A stretch of 64,000 nt of DNA from Methyloterricola oryzae (lineage in GTDB: Bacteria; Pseudomonadota; Gammaproteobacteria; Methylococcales; Methylococcaceae): the NCBI RefSeq assembly GCF_000934725.1, contig NZ_JYNS01000016.1, positions 1-64,000 on the forward strand, given 5' to 3'. The translations under genes were made by a program, and so were the position numbers. Positions 55,856-63,465 of this stretch are shown here, piece by piece. The number at the start of each line of letters is the position of its first letter. Position 1 is the stretch's first letter. The notes under the pieces are model-generated. The model saw nothing but the letters and a program-made list of their open reading frames with translations, was not told where the DNA came from and searched no databases.

Positions 55856-56467
55856 ATGGGGAATTCATTCGTCCTCGCCAGTTCGAATCCAGGAAAACTC
55901 CGCGAGTTCCAGGCGCTTCTGGCGCCTATGGGGGCGGAAATCGCGGCGCTTTCGGCATTTACCGCCACCCAGGCCGATGAGACCGGTGCCACCTTCCTGG
56001 AAAATGCTCTGATCAAGGCTCGCCATGCGGCCCTTTGCAGCGGTTTGCCGGCCATCGCCGACGATTCGGGGCTGGAGGTGGACGCCCTGGCCGGCGCTCC
56101 CGGAGTGCGTTCGGCTCGGTTCGCAGGTCCCGATGCGGACGATGCGGCCAACAATGCCAAGTTGCTGCAGGCGCTGTCGTGCGTCCCCGAAGCGCAGCGT
56201 CTTGCCCGTTTTCGCTGTGTGCTGGTGTTTCTGCGGCACGCGGACGATGCCAGCCCCGTGATCGCTCAAGGCGTTTGGGTGGGTCGGATTGCTTTGTCTC
56301 CAGGGGGACGGGGCGGTTTCGGTTACGACCCGCTTTTCTTCTTGCCGGAATTGGGCTGCACGGCTGCGGAGTTGGAATCTGAGATCAAGAACCGGCTCAG
56401 TCACCGGGGCCAGGCGGTCAGAGCGCTGCTGGCGCAGTTGCGCGAGGTGCTGGGCATCTTGGAGTGA
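55856..56467 (+). CDS. rdgB: dITP/XTP pyrophosphatase (RdgB/HAM1)
   Basis: Removes non-canonical purine triphosphates (ITP, dITP, XTP) by hydrolysis to the monophosphate. The 203-residue protein has [18 protein letters not shown], the [20 protein letters not shown] signature and [13 protein letters not shown]. Length and motifs are normal. Downstream of rph and the carbonic anhydrase remnant. Confidence 0.97.
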
Positions 56468-56678
56468 GCCAAACCCGCGGTTCAGGCGCGCCTTATCGGC
56501 ATCAAAAGGCCATGCAGTACAAGTTTCGCCCATTACCTGCCATAATTTCCCAGGCATCCTGCGGAACCCGGTTCATGGGGCGGCGGTCGGAATAGCGGGC
56601 AGGGCCGCAAATCTGAGATGCCCCCCACAACCGTTGACGACGGTTACTCCTTGCACCACCAAAGCCTGGAAGGCAGTC

Positions 56679-57392
56679 ATGATTGAAGATCTCAAAGGCG
56701 ACGAATCCTGGCGCATGTTCAGGATCATCAGCGAGTTCACGGAAGGGTTCGAAAAGCTCTCCGACACCACGTTCGCCATCTCAATCTTCGGGTCCGCCCG
56801 CATCAAGCCGGAATCGCCTTACTACCAGGTGACACAGACCATTGCGGAATTGCTGGCGAGCCACGGCTTTTCCATCATCAGCGGCGGCGGCCCCGGGATC
56901 ATGGAGGCCGCCAACAAGGGCGCCTGGATGAAGAATGCCCCGTCCATCGGCCTGAACATCCAACTACCGAGCGAGCAGCGGCCCAACGATTTCCAGAACG
57001 TGGCGCTGGAGTTCCGCTATTTCTTCGCGCGCAAGGTGATGTTTGTCAAGTATTCCATCGGCTATGTCTGTCTGCCCGGCGGGTTTGGAACCCTGGACGA
57101 GTTTTTCGAAGCGCTCACCCTGATGCAGACCCATAAGATCCATCCCATGCCGCTGGTCCTCTTCGGATCGGAATATTGGGCCGGCCTGTTGGAATGGATA
57201 CGCAACACCGTGCTGGCGCATGGGTTGATCGAGGAAAGTGAGTTGAATTACATCTCGGTGACGGATGATCCGCTCGAAGTAGTGGACATCATGAACCGGC
57301 ACCGCGAGTGGAAGCTGAAGAAGATCCTCGAGGCGAGCACGAACAAGGGCAAGAAAAAGAACAAGGTTTCGGCGCCGCGCGACTGTCTCTAG
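56679..57392 (+). CDS. LOG-family protein (TIGR00730 Rossmann fold)
   Basis: A 237-residue protein with both LOG motifs, GGGPGIMEAANKGA and PGGFGTLDEFFE. Characterised LOG proteins cleave ribose-5-phosphate from nucleoside 5'-monophosphates; many bacterial members were once labelled lysine decarboxylase. ATG 56679 has AAGG upstream and starts the conserved part; the frame is open further left inside and past rdgB. Its C-terminus is Lys-rich (KGKKKNK). It is the first of four same-strand genes ending in ppdK. The 211-bp gap before it holds only a small hairpin (AACCGT/ACGGTT near 56628-56644). Confidence 0.88.
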   Translation: MIEDLKGDESWRMFRIISEFTEGFEKLSDTTFAISIFGSARIKPESPYYQVTQTIAELLASHGFSIISGGGPGIMEAANKGAWMKNAPSIGLNIQLPSEQRPNDFQNVALEFRYFFARKVMFVKYSIGYVCLPGGFGTLDEFFEALTLMQTHKIHPMPLVLFGSEYWAGLLEWIRNTVLAHGLIEESELNYISVTDDPLEVVDIMNRHREWKLKKILEASTNKGKKKNKVSAPRDCL

Positions 57393-57429
57393 CAGCGGCC
57401 AGCTTCCCGCATCCCAGGAGTCCATCTAC

Positions 57430-58155
57430 ATGCACAGATCCGACCCGCTGACCTTTCTCCAGACCCTGCTGACCAAGGACTATGAAGTGGAAAAGTACGC
57501 CGCCGGGCGGAAAAAGCCACAGGAGCGCGAACCGCTGGTCATCACGCTTTCGCGGGATTATGGAGCCCTCGGTGAGGAAATCGCGAAGCGTCTGGCGGAG
57601 TGCCTGGGCATTCCCCTCTACGACCAGGAAATCCTGGATCTGGTGGCCAAGCACGCCAAGACCGACAAGTTTCATTACCAGCGCCACGATGAACAGGTGA
57701 ACGCCTCGGTTACGACCTTTCTCTACAGTCTGGTAAGCGGCACCACGGCGACCCTGGAGAACTACCGGCGCTACCTTTACGACGTGGTTCTGCAATTGGC
57801 GCGCAACGACTGCGTGATTGTGGGTCGCGGCGCCCATTTGATCCTTTCGGAAAAACGCGTCTTCCGGGTGCGCGTGGTCGGCAGCCGGCAGGTGTGCGCC
57901 GAACGCATCGCCGCCGAGCAGGGGGTTTCCCTCGCTGAGGCGCAAAACAAGGTGCTTGATATCAACGTCATGCGGCACAAGTCCATCGCCAGCTTGTTTG
58001 GCGATCACTTCGAGCATTGTTCCCTGGAACATGCCACCAATTTCGATCTGGTCATCAATACCGACCACATTCCGGCCGAGGGCGCGATGCCGGTCATCCT
58101 GCTTGCCCTGCAGCAAGCGGGGTACAACATCCAGTCTCAGGGACAGAAAGCATGA
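57430..58155 (+). CDS. Cytidylate kinase-like family protein
   Basis: A 241-residue protein resembling the cytidylate-kinase-like family (Cytidylate_kin2): [20 protein letters not shown], then [20 protein letters not shown] and [11 protein letters not shown]. The phosphate loop, usually SRQxGSGG, reads SRDYGALG here, so nucleotide binding may be altered. Substrate is unknown. The N-terminus ([23 protein letters not shown]) is an extra leader. It overlaps the AtpC-like gene by four bases (ATGA), so the two proteins are made together. Confidence 0.8.
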
Positions 58156-58601
58156 GCAGCGCGTCACCTTTATGGCTGCAGGTCGAGATCGCGGACGTCA
58201 GTCAGCAGATCTTCTCGGGCCCCTGTTACTCGGTGGTCGCACCCGCCGCTCTGGGCGAGGTTTGCATCCTGCCCCGCCATGCCCCCTTCCTGACGCGACT
58301 GTTGCCCGGGGAAATCCGGCTGCAGACGGACCAGGACGAGACCCTTCGTTTCTATGTGTCCGGAGGCTACATGGAGGCCCAGCGGACTTCAGTGACAGTC
58401 CTGGCCGATCAGATGCTGCGTTCCAACGAGATCGATCGCGAGGCCGCCCTGGAAGCCAAGCGCCGCGCGGAAGAAGTGCTGAAGAAGAGTCATCTGTTTA
58501 CCGATCGTGACCAAGCCAAGATCGAACTGGTCAAGGCCCTGGCGCAACTGCGCGTGCTGGAGCATGTCGATATCAAGAAATTGCAGAAGCGCCACCGCTG
58601 A
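58152..58601 (+). CDS. Stand-alone ATP synthase epsilon (AtpC)-like protein
   Basis: A 149-residue protein with the AtpC fold: N-terminal beta-sandwich ([56 protein letters not shown]) and a C-terminal helical hairpin ([32 protein letters not shown]). No other ATP synthase genes are near. It is translationally coupled to the kinase-like gene and followed by ppdK after 60 bp. Either the normal epsilon gene has moved, or this is a paralogue with a regulatory role; only the rest of the genome can tell. Confidence 0.8.
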
Positions 58602-58661
58602 AGTCGGCGCAAGCCAAAAACTTACCGGACTACGAACCGGACAGGCAACAGGAGATACGCC

Positions 58662-61382
58662 ATGAATAAAAAATACGTCTATTCCTTCATGGAAGGCGAC
58701 GGCAAGAACAAGCACCTTTTGGGCGGCAAGGGCGCCAATCTGTGCGAGATGACGCAGATCGGCCTCAACGTCCCCCCCGGTTTTGTCATCAGCACGGAAG
58801 CCTGCCTCGAATATCTGGACCGCAAGGATCTGCCGGGAGGATTGCTGGAGGAAGTCCACCAGCACATCACCCAACTGGAAGCCAGGACCGGCAAGAAATT
58901 CGGTGACGAGCGCAATCCGCTGCTGGTGTCCGTGCGCTCCGGTTCCGCCATGTCCATGCCGGGTATGATGGACACCATCCTCAACCTGGGGTTGAACAGC
59001 AAGACCCTGCTCGGTCTCATCGAGCAGACCCGGAACGAGCGCTTCGGCTACGACGCCTACCGGCGTTTCATTCAGTTGTTCGGCAAGGTGGCGTTGGGTG
59101 TGCCGGACAGCCTGTTCGACGAGCAGTTCGATGAAATCAAGCACCAGGCTGGCGTCAAGGCCGACGTGGGCCTCAGTGCGGCGCACCTGAAGGAAGTCAG
59201 CGAGCGATTCCTGAGGGTGGTGCAGACTCATACTGGCAGAGCCTTCCCCGAAGACGTTTACGAGCAGCTCGGCATTGCCATCAAGGCCGTGTTCAATTCC
59301 TGGATGGGCAAGCGCGCCATCGATTACCGCCGCGAGTTCAACATCACACCCGCCATGGCTAACGGCACCGCCGTCAACGTGGTCACCATGGTATTCGGCA
59401 ATATGGGCAATGACTGCGCCACGGGCGTCGGCTTCACCCGCAATCCGGGTACCGGCGAGAACGAAATGTTCGGCGAGTACCTGGTCAATGCCCAGGGTGA
59501 GGATGTGGTGGCGGGTATCCGCACACCCAAGCCGGTGCACGAAATGATGGTGGAAATGCCGGACCTCTACCGGCAACTGGTGGATCTGCGCGACAAGCTG
59601 GAAGGCCACTATCACGAGGTGCAGGACTACGAGTACACCATCGAGAAGGGCACCCTCTATTGCCTGCAGACCCGCAACGGCAAGATGAATGCCACTGCCA
59701 TGGTGCGCAGTTCGGTGGAGATGTTCGGCGAAGGTCTCATCAGCAAGGAGCAGGCCCTGTTGCGGGTCAAGCCCGACGACCTTGAGCAGTTGCTGCATCC
59801 TTGCCTGGACCCCAGTCATGACCACAAGCCTCTGGCGCAAGGCCTGCCCGCCTCTCCCGGCGCTGCCAGCGGACGCTGTGTGTTCGACGCCGACCAGGCT
59901 GAAATCCTGGGCCGGTCCGGGCAGAAGGTGATTCTGGTGCGTGAGGAGACCAAGCCCGAGGATATCCACGGTTTCTTTGCATCCCAGGGCATCCTGACCA
60001 GCCGTGGCGGCAAGACCTCCCATGCCGCCGTGGTGGCGCGGGGCATGGGCAAGGCCTGCGTGGCGGGTGCCGAAGGCATCAAGGTGGACAGCCGGGCGCG
60101 CCTGGCGACGGTGGGCGACGTGACCCTGAAAGAGGGTGACGTGATAACTATCGATGGCAGTAACGGGAACGTCTACCTGGGCGAGATCCCGACCATCGAG
60201 CCGAAGTTTTCCGAAGAGCTTAAAACCCTGCTGTCTTGGGCGGACGAAATGGCCGAGATCAAGGTCATGGCCAACGCCGACACCCCCAGTGCCGCGCAAC
60301 TGGCGCTGGAATTTGGCGCCATGGGCATTGGCCTGTGCCGCACCGAACGCATGTTCAATGCCACGGACCGCTTGCCCATCGTGGTGGAGATGATTCTGGC
60401 TCATTCCCTGGAAGAGCGGCAGGCGGCGCTGGACAAGCTCATGCCCATCCAGCGCGAGGACTTCAAGGAGATCTTTAAGATAATGGCGCCGCGTCCGGTG
60501 ACGGTGCGGCTGCTGGACCCGCCCATGCACGAGTTCCTGCCAAGCGAACACCAACTGGAAGACGAACTGCGCGCCCTGGACGAGTACCGCATGGTAGTGC
60601 GTGGGCGGACCGCCGCCTTGGTCGCGCTGAACATGGGCGCCGATAATGTCACCGAGGACCAGGTGAACGCGGTGATTGCCCGCAAGGAACAGATGCTGCG
60701 CAAGGTGCGCGAGCTGTACGAGGTCAATCCCATGCTCGGCCACCGGGGCGTGCGCCTGGGGCTGACCTATCCCGAGATCTACGAGATGCAGATTCGCGCC
60801 ATCCTGGAAGCGGCAGCCCAGTGCCAGAAGGAAGGTTCGCAGGTCACGCCGGAAATCATGGTGCCGCAGGTCATCACCTCCGAGGAGCTGCGGCGGGTCA
60901 AGGCCACCGTGGACCGTGTCCAGCAGGAGATCGAGGGCGCTTATGGCGTCACGCTGCATTTCAAGTTCGGCAGCATGGTCGAGACCGTCCGCGCGTGCAC
61001 CCGTGCCGCGCAACTGGCGGAGGTGGCCGAGTTCTTCTCATTTGGCACCAACGACCTGACCCAGGCTACGTTCTCGTTTTCGCGCGAGGATGCCGAGAAC
61101 AAGTTCCTGCCGCTCTATACCGAGCACGGCATTCTGGAGGACAACCCCTTCGAAGTGCTGGATGTCAACGGCGTCGGCACTCTGATGCAGATGACCGTAG
61201 AGCGGGGCCGCAAGACCAAGCCCGACCTGAAAGTTGGCATCTGCGGTGAGCAGGGCGGGCATCCGGCCTCCATCCGCTTCTGTCACGGTATCGGGCTGAA
61301 TTACGTCTCCTGTTCCGCCCCGCGCGTGCCTGTGGCGCGCATGGCCGCCGCGCACGCCCGGCTGGTTCCCGCCACCAGATAA
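58662..61382 (+). CDS. ppdK: Pyruvate, phosphate dikinase
   Basis: Interconverts pyruvate + ATP + Pi and PEP + AMP + PPi. The 906-residue protein has the N-terminal nucleotide-binding domain (GGKGANLCEM, SVRSGSAMSMPGMMDTILNL), the central domain with phospho-carrier His454 in GGKTSHAAVVARGMG, and the C-terminal PEP/pyruvate barrel (GIGLCRTERMF and SFGTNDLTQATFSFSREDAE). Length is standard. CAGGAGA precedes the ATG. In methanotrophs PPi-linked glycolytic steps are common, so it probably joins C1 assimilation to the lower glycolytic pathway. Confidence 0.98.
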   Translation: MNKKYVYSFMEGDGKNKHLLGGKGANLCEMTQIGLNVPPGFVISTEACLEYLDRKDLPGGLLEEVHQHITQLEARTGKKFGDERNPLLVSVRSGSAMSMPGMMDTILNLGLNSKTLLGLIEQTRNERFGYDAYRRFIQLFGKVALGVPDSLFDEQFDEIKHQAGVKADVGLSAAHLKEVSERFLRVVQTHTGRAFPEDVYEQLGIAIKAVFNSWMGKRAIDYRREFNITPAMANGTAVNVVTMVFGNMGNDCATGVGFTRNPGTGENEMFGEYLVNAQGEDVVAGIRTPKPVHEMMVEMPDLYRQLVDLRDKLEGHYHEVQDYEYTIEKGTLYCLQTRNGKMNATAMVRSSVEMFGEGLISKEQALLRVKPDDLEQLLHPCLDPSHDHKPLAQGLPASPGAASGRCVFDADQAEILGRSGQKVILVREETKPEDIHGFFASQGILTSRGGKTSHAAVVARGMGKACVAGAEGIKVDSRARLATVGDVTLKEGDVITIDGSNGNVYLGEIPTIEPKFSEELKTLLSWADEMAEIKVMANADTPSAAQLALEFGAMGIGLCRTERMFNATDRLPIVVEMILAHSLEERQAALDKLMPIQREDFKEIFKIMAPRPVTVRLLDPPMHEFLPSEHQLEDELRALDEYRMVVRGRTAALVALNMGADNVTEDQVNAVIARKEQMLRKVRELYEVNPMLGHRGVRLGLTYPEIYEMQIRAILEAAAQCQKEGSQVTPEIMVPQVITSEELRRVKATVDRVQQEIEGAYGVTLHFKFGSMVETVRACTRAAQLAEVAEFFSFGTNDLTQATFSFSREDAENKFLPLYTEHGILEDNPFEVLDVNGVGTLMQMTVERGRKTKPDLKVGICGEQGGHPASIRFCHGIGLNYVSCSAPRVPVARMAAAHARLVPATR

Positions 61383-61542
61383 GGCAGATCCCGTCAACGC
61401 CCTAGGGCCCCCGTGCCCTGGGGCGCCCTCCGCCCGCCTCCGTAGCCCCACGCTTCCACATCGCGCCGCAATAGCGGAAAATGCGCGGTGCCGGTCGCGC
61501 CCGGTCTCCCTTCGCCTAGAGAAAAATAACGAGGATTTACCG

Positions 61543-62460
61543 ATGGAAAAAGTATTCGTCCTGCACATGTTCACGCCTGAAAAGAACCTGAGCCCTTTCG
61601 ACGTGAACATGGCGCTGGATGCCGGTTGGATTTCGACCGTGCCATATACCCAGCTCGACAGCAATGAAATCCCGGCCCTGGTGCAGGATGTCATCTTTTC
61701 CCGCAGCCCCAGCGGCGTGAAGCGCACGGGCATCTTCATCGGCGGACGCGATGTCAAGACGGCGCTGGACATGCTGAATAGCGCCAAGCAGAACATGATT
61801 CCGCCGTTCGAGGTGTCGGCTTTCGCCGATCCCAGCGGAGCCTTCACCACCGCCGCGGCCATGGTCGCTATGGTCGAGCGTGAGCTGGAAAAGAATCATG
61901 GGGCCGGATTGCAAGGCATGAATGTGCTGGCACTGGGCGGAACCGGGCCGGTGGGTCAGATCGCTGCGGTGCTCTCGGCCCAGGCCGGCGCCAACGTGAA
62001 GATCATTGGGCGCCAGTTGGAGAAGGCCCAGAATGTGGCGGCCTTGTGCAATGCCGAATACGGTGGGGGCAAGACCAACATCGCGGGTGATGCGGATGCC
62101 AACAAGGCGGAACTGATCCAGACCGCCGACGTGGTGTTCGCTACCGCGGCCGCCGGCATTCAAGTGCTGAGTGCGGAACTAGTGGCGGCGGCTCCACGGC
62201 TCAAGGCCGCGGCGGATGTGAATGCAGTGCCGCCGTCGGGAATCGCCGGCCTGGACGCGCACCACAAAGGCACGCCCATCGATGGCAGCCGCAGCGGGGC
62301 CGTGGGTATCGGCGCACTGGCCATCGGCAACGTCAAATACCAAACTCAGCACAAGCTGCTCAATATGATGCGCTTCCAGACCCGCAAAGGGGACAAGCCG
62401 GTGTTCCTGCACTACGAGCATGCTTTCGAAGTGGCACGCGAGTTTGCCAAGAAGCTGTAA
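61543..62460 (+). CDS. mtdB: Methylene-tetrahydromethanopterin dehydrogenase, MtdB type, copy 1
   Basis: Oxidises methylene-H4MPT to methenyl-H4MPT with NAD(P) in formaldehyde oxidation. The 305-residue protein has LSPFDVNMALDAGW, RTGIFIGGRDVKTALDML, FEVSAFADPSGAFTTAAAMV, the nucleotide loop ALGGTGPVGQIA and AVGIGALAIGNVKYQ. These features fit MtdB better than MtdA. GAGG precedes the ATG. Its C-terminus (YEHAFEVAREFAKKL) differs from the copy that follows, 99 bp downstream. Confidence 0.88.
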   Translation: MEKVFVLHMFTPEKNLSPFDVNMALDAGWISTVPYTQLDSNEIPALVQDVIFSRSPSGVKRTGIFIGGRDVKTALDMLNSAKQNMIPPFEVSAFADPSGAFTTAAAMVAMVERELEKNHGAGLQGMNVLALGGTGPVGQIAAVLSAQAGANVKIIGRQLEKAQNVAALCNAEYGGGKTNIAGDADANKAELIQTADVVFATAAAGIQVLSAELVAAAPRLKAAADVNAVPPSGIAGLDAHHKGTPIDGSRSGAVGIGALAIGNVKYQTQHKLLNMMRFQTRKGDKPVFLHYEHAFEVAREFAKKL

Positions 62461-62559
62461 TCGGCCGCGGTTTTCAAGCGGGGTCGGCTGGCGGGCGCTT
62501 TCGCCGTTCACGCCGGCCCTGGCTTTCGAATAAACCTGATTCCACAGGAGACTGATCCA

Positions 62560-63465
62560 ATGGAAAAACGTTCCATCATCCACATGTTCGATCCCATGCC
62601 GCATAACAGCCCGTTCGATTTGAACATGGCGGCCGACGCCGGGTTCGATGTGCTGCTGCCCTATAGCAATGTCAAGCTGGAGGAGGTCAACGGGCTCGTG
62701 CAGGACGCCATTTTCTCCCGGGGCCCTGCAGGCGTGAAGCGCACCGGCATCTTTGTTGGGGGGCGCGATATCGGCATGGCCATGGATATGCTGGAGGGAG
62801 CCAGAAAGGCGATGGTGCCTCCCTTTGAAGTCTCGGTTTTTGCCGATCCCAGCGGCGCCTTCACTACCGCCGCGGCTTTGGTGGCCTGTGTGGAAAAGCA
62901 GTTGAAGGACAAGCATGGCCTGGAGCTGAAGGATCAGCGGGCAGTGGTCTTTGGCGGTACCGGGCCGGTGGGACTGGCCACTGGCGTCATCGCATCGCTC
63001 GCGGGCGCCGACACCACTATCGTGGACCATTTGTCCATCGACACGGCTCTGGAAAAGGCCGCGGAATACAATGGCCGCTGCGGGAGCGCACTCAAGGGAA
63101 CTTATGCGAGTTCCGAGGCGGACAAGGCGCGTCTAATCGCTAATGCCGATATTGTGTTCTGTACCGCCAAGGCTGGAGTGCAGGTGCTCAGCGCTTCCGT
63201 ACTCGCCGATGCCAAGCAGCTCAAGGTGGCCGGCGACGTCAACGCGGTGCCGCCTTTGGGTGTTGAGGGTGTCAAGCTGAAGGACAATGGCGCCCCGTTA
63301 CTTTGCGCCACCAACAGCCGCGGCGCTGTGGGCATAGGAGCACTGGCGGTGGGTAATGTGAAGTACCAGCTGCAAAACCGGCTGCTGAGCCTCATGTTGG
63401 AAACGGACAAACCAGTCTATCTGGATTTCCGTGATGCCTTTCTGCGTGCCCGCGAGCTGGTCTGA
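62560..63465 (+). CDS. mtdB: Methylene-tetrahydromethanopterin dehydrogenase, MtdB type, copy 2
   Basis: A 301-residue paralogue of the preceding gene with NSPFDLNMAADAGF, RTGIFVGGRDIGMAMDML, FADPSGAFTTAAALV, FGGTGPVGLATGV and AVGIGALAVGNVKYQLQ; its C-terminus (PVYLDFRDAFLRARELV) is closer to characterised MtdB (LDFRDAY). CAGGAG precedes ATG 62560. The copies share all core motifs but differ in many other places, so the duplication is old. They may differ in NAD versus NADP preference. Confidence 0.88.
   Translation: MEKRSIIHMFDPMPHNSPFDLNMAADAGFDVLLPYSNVKLEEVNGLVQDAIFSRGPAGVKRTGIFVGGRDIGMAMDMLEGARKAMVPPFEVSVFADPSGAFTTAAALVACVEKQLKDKHGLELKDQRAVVFGGTGPVGLATGVIASLAGADTTIVDHLSIDTALEKAAEYNGRCGSALKGTYASSEADKARLIANADIVFCTAKAGVQVLSASVLADAKQLKVAGDVNAVPPLGVEGVKLKDNGAPLLCATNSRGAVGIGALAVGNVKYQLQNRLLSLMLETDKPVYLDFRDAFLRARELV

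Follow-up and report, generated by a model that had tools for sequence, protein, structure and literature searches.

Why should a gene for an epsilon-like subunit of the F1 ATP synthase (AtpC) stand by itself directly upstream of the gene for pyruvate phosphate dikinase (PPDK)? The question arises from a stretch of 64,000 nucleotides of Methyloterricola oryzae, positions 1 to 64,000 of contig NZ_JYNS01000016.1, the whole of which we call the window (G000:C16 in the labels used below, where G stands for genome, C for contig and L for fetched locus). There the AtpC-like gene, EPS, is coupled to a preceding gene for a cytidylate kinase-like protein, CK2, and comparison with relatives of the same family (Methylococcaceae) and with more distant bacteria establishes that CK2 and EPS form a conserved two-gene pair. 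The pairing and its adjacency to PPDK suggest, as far as sequence comparison goes, that energy metabolism has a control unit not recognised before; our favoured reading, held tentatively, is that CK2-EPS may be a regulatory pair of the phosphofructokinase (PFK) or phosphoenolpyruvate (PEP)-pyruvate steps. The genes concerned are as follows.

56679..57392, + strand: LOG-like protein (TIGR00730 / PF03641), an optional neighbour
57430..58155, + strand: CK2, cytidylate kinase-like protein with a predicted CMP-kinase-like fold (PF13189)
58152..58601, + strand: EPS, stand-alone AtpC-like (F1 epsilon) paralogue (PF02823 + PF00401, TIGR01216)
58662..61382, + strand: PPDK, pyruvate phosphate dikinase, 906 aa (TIGR01828)
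61543..62460, + strand: methylene-tetrahydromethanopterin (H4MPT) dehydrogenase-type protein, first member of a tandem pair (PF09176)
62560..63465, + strand: methylene-H4MPT dehydrogenase-type protein, second member of the pair (PF09176)

That the first four are + strand genes separated by short gaps, with one ATGA overlap, had been claimed in a preliminary description made from the sequence alone, and is correct in every particular, the families now being identified by profile matches. CK2 matches PF13189 over the whole domain (139.2 bits against a cut-off of 28; profile positions 1-176 of 176), EPS matches TIGR01216 (100 bits, cut-off 67) as well as PF02823 and PF00401, and PPDK matches TIGR01828 at full length (1293 bits, cut-off 843; positions 1-865 of 865). 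The gaps are 37 bp between LOG and CK2 and 60 bp between EPS and PPDK, and the CK2 stop and EPS start share the ATGA at 58152-58155. No promoter-like sites were found in 56300-61700, where 1.4 are expected from shuffles, and no + strand terminator-like sites between the four genes, both of these being weak evidence. A plasmid search gave no match.

EPS is an additional copy and not the genome's normal epsilon subunit in a displaced position, since a separate canonical pair, atpD with atpC directly behind it, is present on contig C5; the presence of such a second gene, on which the preliminary description depended, is thereby confirmed. The canonical product is 53% identical to EPS. No atp genes occur among the neighbours of the window EPS, which is thus not behind atpD in an atp operon. 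A third AtpC-type gene, of an alternate-type ATPase, is found on C7, where there is a second, alternate-type F1Fo ATPase cluster (G000:C7:178686-178919 and neighbours; L003, L060).

How general is the arrangement? We searched 101 genomes, 38 of them Methylococcaceae. CK2 is present in 27 of the 101, all within the 38, and EPS-type matches scoring above every canonical one occur in 26/38, these being the CK2 genomes minus G014. In all 26 EPS adjoins CK2, with gaps of -14 to +40 bp (25 loci measured); EPS-PPDK gaps are 1 to 77 bp (19 loci measured), start codon choice affecting both sets of values. PPDK follows on the same strand at 21/27 CK2 loci, so that the gene order inferred from the window alone is indeed kept in relatives, as CK2-EPS-PPDK in 20 of the 27 and as CK2-PPDK in one. 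The LOG gene, which had been counted as a core member, has to be dropped from the module: it adjoins CK2 at only eight of the 27 loci, one further contig (L044) ending too early for its presence to be judged. At one of the eight (L041 9412-9634, in G033) the LOG-like gene is broken; CK2, EPS and PPDK match whole there.

The relation of EPS to canonical epsilon was examined in a tree of 65 rows, from which the canonical AtpC of G007 and a G463 fragment were left out. A branch with support of 99/91 places 33 orphan (stand-alone) sequences on one side and 23 canonical rows on the other, the root being at the midpoint. The clade of 33 comprises the 26 family members and L094, L105, G225, G420, G361, G250 and G455; CK2 adjoins EPS in 31 of them, and the other two (G250 and G455) are found with PFK. 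The position of L094 and L105 is less sure, because an earlier tree of 53 rows, lacking nine of the orphans and three of the canonical rows, put both on the canonical side. To judge from the phylogeny, then, EPS is an old paralogue of F1 epsilon, with its own clade outside the ATP synthase operon. It is also under purifying selection, dN/dS (the ratio of nonsynonymous to synonymous substitution rates) being 0.07-0.24 over 11 EPS pairs, compared with 0.04-0.41 for CK2 (11 pairs) and 0.03-0.15 for PPDK (nine pairs), with the reservation that dS exceeds 1 in several pairs.

What the paralogue has kept and what it has changed can be read by comparing the 26 family sequences with the 23 canonical rows (E. 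coli epsilon numbering without Met). EPS shares with canonical AtpC its fold, length and most glycines: G30, E31, H38, G48, G67, E70, L79, D81 and R85 are kept in 100% of the 26, and L42 in 96%. It differs in standing apart from atpD and beside CK2, and in sequence at several places: the segment V9-S10-A11-E12, present in 100% of canonical rows, is mostly A-D-V-[GAC]; P73 is lost, Q72 is Q or K, and E91 has become R in 73%; C20, R114 and R129 are invariant, and D10, D115 and K123 nearly so (96%), the C-terminal helix bearing new invariant charges. We take E31 to contact the c-ring, and S10 and H38 to lie near gamma. The remodelled 9-12 segment and the helix charges would thus argue for a changed binding partner; the retained E31, H38, D81 and R85 would still allow binding to F1. 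The predicted fold is that of a complete epsilon (pLDDT 86.7), best matched by E. coli epsilon 1aqt (TM 0.86/0.95). Among the Foldseek entries is 9a4b_B, from a PDB integrative model titled ABRB-ATPE, with an epsilon-like chain, which might be a precedent for an epsilon outside the ATP synthase.

Such a mixture of retained and altered residues brings up the main rival to a metabolic regulator, namely that EPS, once its operon is expressed, takes the place of canonical epsilon in F1Fo and alters the inhibition of ATP hydrolysis at times when substrate-level reactions (PPDK, carbamate kinase) supply the ATP, with CK2 assisting or modifying EPS. An exchangeable subunit of this kind would account for the full-length predicted fold and for the conserved residues just listed, E31, H38, G30, G48, D81, R85 and L42 among them, and it would sit well with what is seen in the 16 orphans from outside the family (seven belong to the clade of 33), which retain the canonical 9-12 segment more often (S10 and E12 in 62%) and keep Q72 and P73 in 94%. 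Two neighbourhoods would also suit it: in G270:C57 (L213 4952-5389) a stand-alone AtpC-like gene lies behind those for arginine deiminase, ornithine carbamoyltransferase and carbamate kinase, all on one strand, and at L094 and L105 CK2-EPS precedes a gene for a NarQ/NarX-like sensor kinase, a resemblance below the curated cut-offs. We nevertheless think it unlikely, given the replacement of the 9-12 segment, the loss of P73, the E91 to R change and the new helix charges in the family proteins, and given that not one atp gene stands beside the 26 family EPS or the seven other clade members.

A regulatory role for CK2-EPS at the PFK or PEP-pyruvate steps draws instead on the genes with which the pair, or one member of it, recurs: runs for ATP- or pyrophosphate (PPi)-dependent steps of glycolysis and gluconeogenesis, holding PPDK, phosphofructokinases or phosphoglycerate mutase and, in one cluster, PEP synthase with an aldolase. 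Genes outside the window were mechanical open reading frame (ORF) calls read by eye, some confirmed by family searches, and a number of those listed at high-G+C loci are false. In G455 a PFK gene overlaps EPS; its product is not a PPi-dependent candidate, since it scores above the cut-off for an ATP-dependent PFK subfamily model and reaches that of none of the PPi models. In G250 EPS is the last gene of a run that opens with PFK, followed by pyruvate:ferredoxin oxidoreductase (POR) subunit genes and a redox gene. At E 1e-10 CK2 was detected in 15 genomes of our class sample, G250 and G455 not among them; these two belong to one family with G361, whose EPS does adjoin CK2; within this lineage, therefore, the neighbour of EPS switches between CK2 and PFK. 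In G115 (L203, L227; G115:C51) one strand carries genes for a class I aldolase, an AtpC-like protein, PEP synthase, 2-oxoacid:ferredoxin oxidoreductase-type (POR) proteins and CK2, the last about 7 kb from the AtpC-like gene, with Mnh-type antiporter genes, read by eye, on the same strand; this AtpC-like copy groups with canonical AtpC and is accordingly a separate derivation. CK2 also appears without EPS, in the order phosphoglycerate mutase-PfkB-CK2 in G463 and, in a deltaproteobacterium (L145), between a response regulator and genes for an enoyl-CoA hydratase-type protein and PPDK. At L096 other genes separate it from PPDK, about 1.4 kb downstream, and LOG-like genes lie upstream of CK2 at L100, L103 and L149. 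We are less assured of a wider version, in which epsilon paralogues of several lineages of the Gammaproteobacteria class and their PF13189 partner would together be a switch coupling ATP synthase or adenylate state to PPDK, PFK and PEP synthase; it is possible, at a lower level of confidence than the role of the pair itself.

The search for stand-alone copies in this class sample began from the 42/369 genomes with two or more PF02823 matches. Six of the 42, the window's included, are CK2-EPS genomes; the other 36 were searched again, and 20 regions were fetched in 18 of them, chosen for stronger second matches, of which 10 had atpD and 10 did not. Counts of stand-alone AtpC, resting on 18 of the 36, are thus minima. 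In G402 (C23:169756-170730) two AtpC-type matches on the same strand, separated by about 500 bases, may be a tandem atpC.

Several of these results weigh against a regulatory role in central carbon metabolism. Nine further stand-alone AtpC copies (G115, G231, G255, G270, G378, G409, G145, G168 and G382) are placed by the tree on the canonical side, which disposes of a single origin for all stand-alone AtpC; that of G231 is nonetheless beside CK2, and those of G145, G168, G255, G378, G382 and G409 have no metabolic neighbour of the sort described above. At none of the six loci outside the family where CK2 and EPS are adjacent (L094, L105, G225, G231, G361 and G420) was a glycolytic neighbour recognised, and the metabolic neighbours that we do cite were picked out after the fact. 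EPS was beside CK2 at none of 29 phylum-level loci (L228-L256), which were the top-scoring ones among more than 100 matches and have flanks of about 1.5 kb. Within the family, G014 has CK2 and PPDK without EPS; CK2-EPS lies away from PPDK in 6/27 genomes (G001, G007, G015, G020, G022 and G028), and at four of these six loci, read by eye, no glycolytic operon partner was recognised; CK2 of G017 has a 37-residue in-frame gap, EPS and PPDK being kept over their length; and 8/34 PPDK-bearing genomes have neither CK2 nor EPS. PPDK cannot, with six of the 27 pairs elsewhere and the pair lacking from eight PPDK genomes, depend strictly on CK2-EPS. The G017 gap (L058 8321-8932) takes in the GRGAH segment of CK2.

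Could the pair then have a function unrelated to PPDK, such as nucleotide salvage or stress sensing, and merely have stood upstream of it since an ancestor, held there by inertia or shared expression? CK2 and EPS are still together in all six genomes where they are not beside PPDK; in two of the six, G001 and G015, PPDK still has its methylene-H4MPT-dehydrogenase-type neighbours; and the genes around CK2 relatives of other groups vary. All of this is what a pair with no specific link would show. The history of the linkage speaks the other way. PPDK itself is found in 34/38 family genomes, 32 of them with matches over the cut-off and two with contig-broken pieces; of the four without it, three belong to genus g15 and have no CK2 either, and the fourth, G022, has CK2, is 72% complete and gave in the PPDK search only a PEP-synthase-like match, not counted as PPDK. 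On a PPDK tree of 33 rows, which leaves out the broken PPDK of G028, the 21 CK2-linked rows (20 with EPS) occur on either side of the midpoint root, and the linked label needs seven changes, at least six of them forced by starred branches, a clustering as low as which was reached in 8 of 500 shuffles. From this distribution and these changes the linkage of CK2-EPS to PPDK appears to be ancient and to have been lost or moved repeatedly, yet it persists in 21/33 rows. Together with the recurrence of metabolic neighbours in other lineages and the co-occurrence of CK2 and PPDK outside the family, this makes an incidental neighbourhood improbable in our estimation, more so than an exchangeable subunit.

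The co-occurrence is seen in the same class sample, in which CK2 is present in 15/369 genomes (E 1e-10) and PPDK in 51/369 (E 1e-150). With the two family members set aside, PPDK is found in 6/13 CK2 genomes versus 43/354 without CK2 (Fisher P 0.0035, uncorrected for kinship); the 13 represent 10 families, and PPDK occurs in five of these. At phylum level CK2 is present in 46/398 genomes, frequently with more than one copy per genome, and 45 of the 46 are from outside the class. In a CK2 tree, from which five rows were left out (two duplicates and three partial), the EPS-linked rows from outside the family do not come together as a single group, so the pairing has been gained or lost more than once. 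Many phylum genomes from outside the class have several PF13189 genes each, some in tandem pairs and some in frames of about 400 residues (L228, L235, L239, L243).

The CK2 protein itself is, by its predicted structure (pLDDT 82.8), closest to the solved folds 3hdt, a 'putative kinase', and 3fdi, an 'uncharacterized protein', and then to CMP kinases. The preliminary description had singled out its phosphate loop, GALG, as specially altered. That trait dissolves in the alignment: the loop is G-[AS]-x-G, and its third position shows ordinary variation among the 27 orthologues (G in 13, L in 9, R in 3, Q in 1 and E in 1). The loop is followed by an acidic residue or Gly in place of the Walker lysine, Glu in the window protein and E in 22, D in 4 and G in 1 of the 27 family rows; Lys is present in 7/70 other PF13189 rows. 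GRGAH is found in 25/27 family rows, one of the others being gapped and one reading GRGGH, and in a LID-like segment all 27 have Asn where 36/70 other rows have Asp. CK2 is therefore a PF13189 (Cytidylate_kin2) protein by its whole-domain match and nearest folds, and differs from the rest of the family in belonging to a branch coupled to EPS and in its uniform Asn.

If CK2-EPS acts on PPDK, what would it do there? CK2 would bind a nucleotide and report the adenylate or PPi state, EPS would dock CK2 through its beta-sandwich and C-terminal helices, and the two together would adjust the PEP-pyruvate (PPDK) or PFK step. A role of this sort is elsewhere that of DUF299 (PF03618; PpsR), which, in passages of a review (PMC8100219), is said to control PPDK by reversible phosphorylation, as shown in Listeria, and to have a homologue in all PPDK-bearing bacteria. 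Contrary to those passages, a PF03618 search left DUF299 undetected in 27/34 PPDK-bearing Methylococcaceae genomes; it was found in 11/38 of the family and in seven of the 34. With DUF299 undetected in most PPDK-bearing relatives, CK2-EPS could fill its role, control of PPDK by energy state. The likeness would be one of function: none of the four proteins of the locus matches PF03618 at E 0.01, and the window genome's own PF03618 protein, which passes the PpsR cut-off, is encoded on C5 beside a PEP synthase gene and not beside PPDK. The two systems show no complementary distribution, CK2 being present in 20/27 PPDK genomes without DUF299 and in 6/7 with it, and because they do not avoid one another CK2-EPS can be called a candidate substitute but not a proven one.

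The mechanism envisaged in the preliminary description was more specific. It had EPS sensing ATP; the ATP-binding motif of epsilon, of the Bacillus PS3 type, we take to be I/L-D-x-x-R-A, and the corresponding segment in window EPS reads I-D-R-E-A-A, the Arg position being Ala in 77% and Arg in 12% of the 26 orthologues. The Arg is absent from the window protein just as from the canonical AtpC of the same genome, which also has Ala, and ATP sensing is for this reason without support from the sequence. That EPS is an ATP sensor and CK2 a kinase modifying PPDK in the manner of the plant PPDK regulatory protein is thus very improbable, for although the operon structure, the T-S-H segment kept in window PPDK (presumably its active-site segment) and the scarcity of detected DUF299 are in its favour, the motif Arg is replaced, the predicted CK2 fold is that of a small-molecule kinase and the Walker lysine position is never Lys in the family. 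What survives of the earlier idea of a module is CK2-EPS, with a link to PEP/pyruvate and PFK genes that recurs in other lineages; LOG, the phosphate loop and ATP sensing find no support.

All parts of the locus belong to known families, and a PPDK gene in a methanotroph is in keeping with PPi-linked glycolysis with PPDK in these bacteria. On stand-alone or additional AtpC or epsilon, and on its pairing with PF13189, the open papers that we searched, a body outside which lie most subscription journals and all bioRxiv preprints, yielded nothing to the point. Epsilon is the built-in brake of ATP synthase; depending on which reading holds, bacteria would swap this brake with metabolic mode, or the epsilon fold would have been taken over to regulate enzymes of central carbon metabolism. 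CK2-EPS is also a candidate PPDK regulator in bacteria without detected DUF299, and may offer a first functional lead for PF13189.

Two further features were seen near PPDK and PEP synthase. The PF09176 tandem pair at 61543-63465 is also found 3' of PPDK in several relatives. The PEP synthase beside ppsR on G000:C5 (L074 7322-10645) is encoded by a single frame, 1107 residues long, in which a TIGR01459 HAD-type hydrolase domain precedes the synthase.

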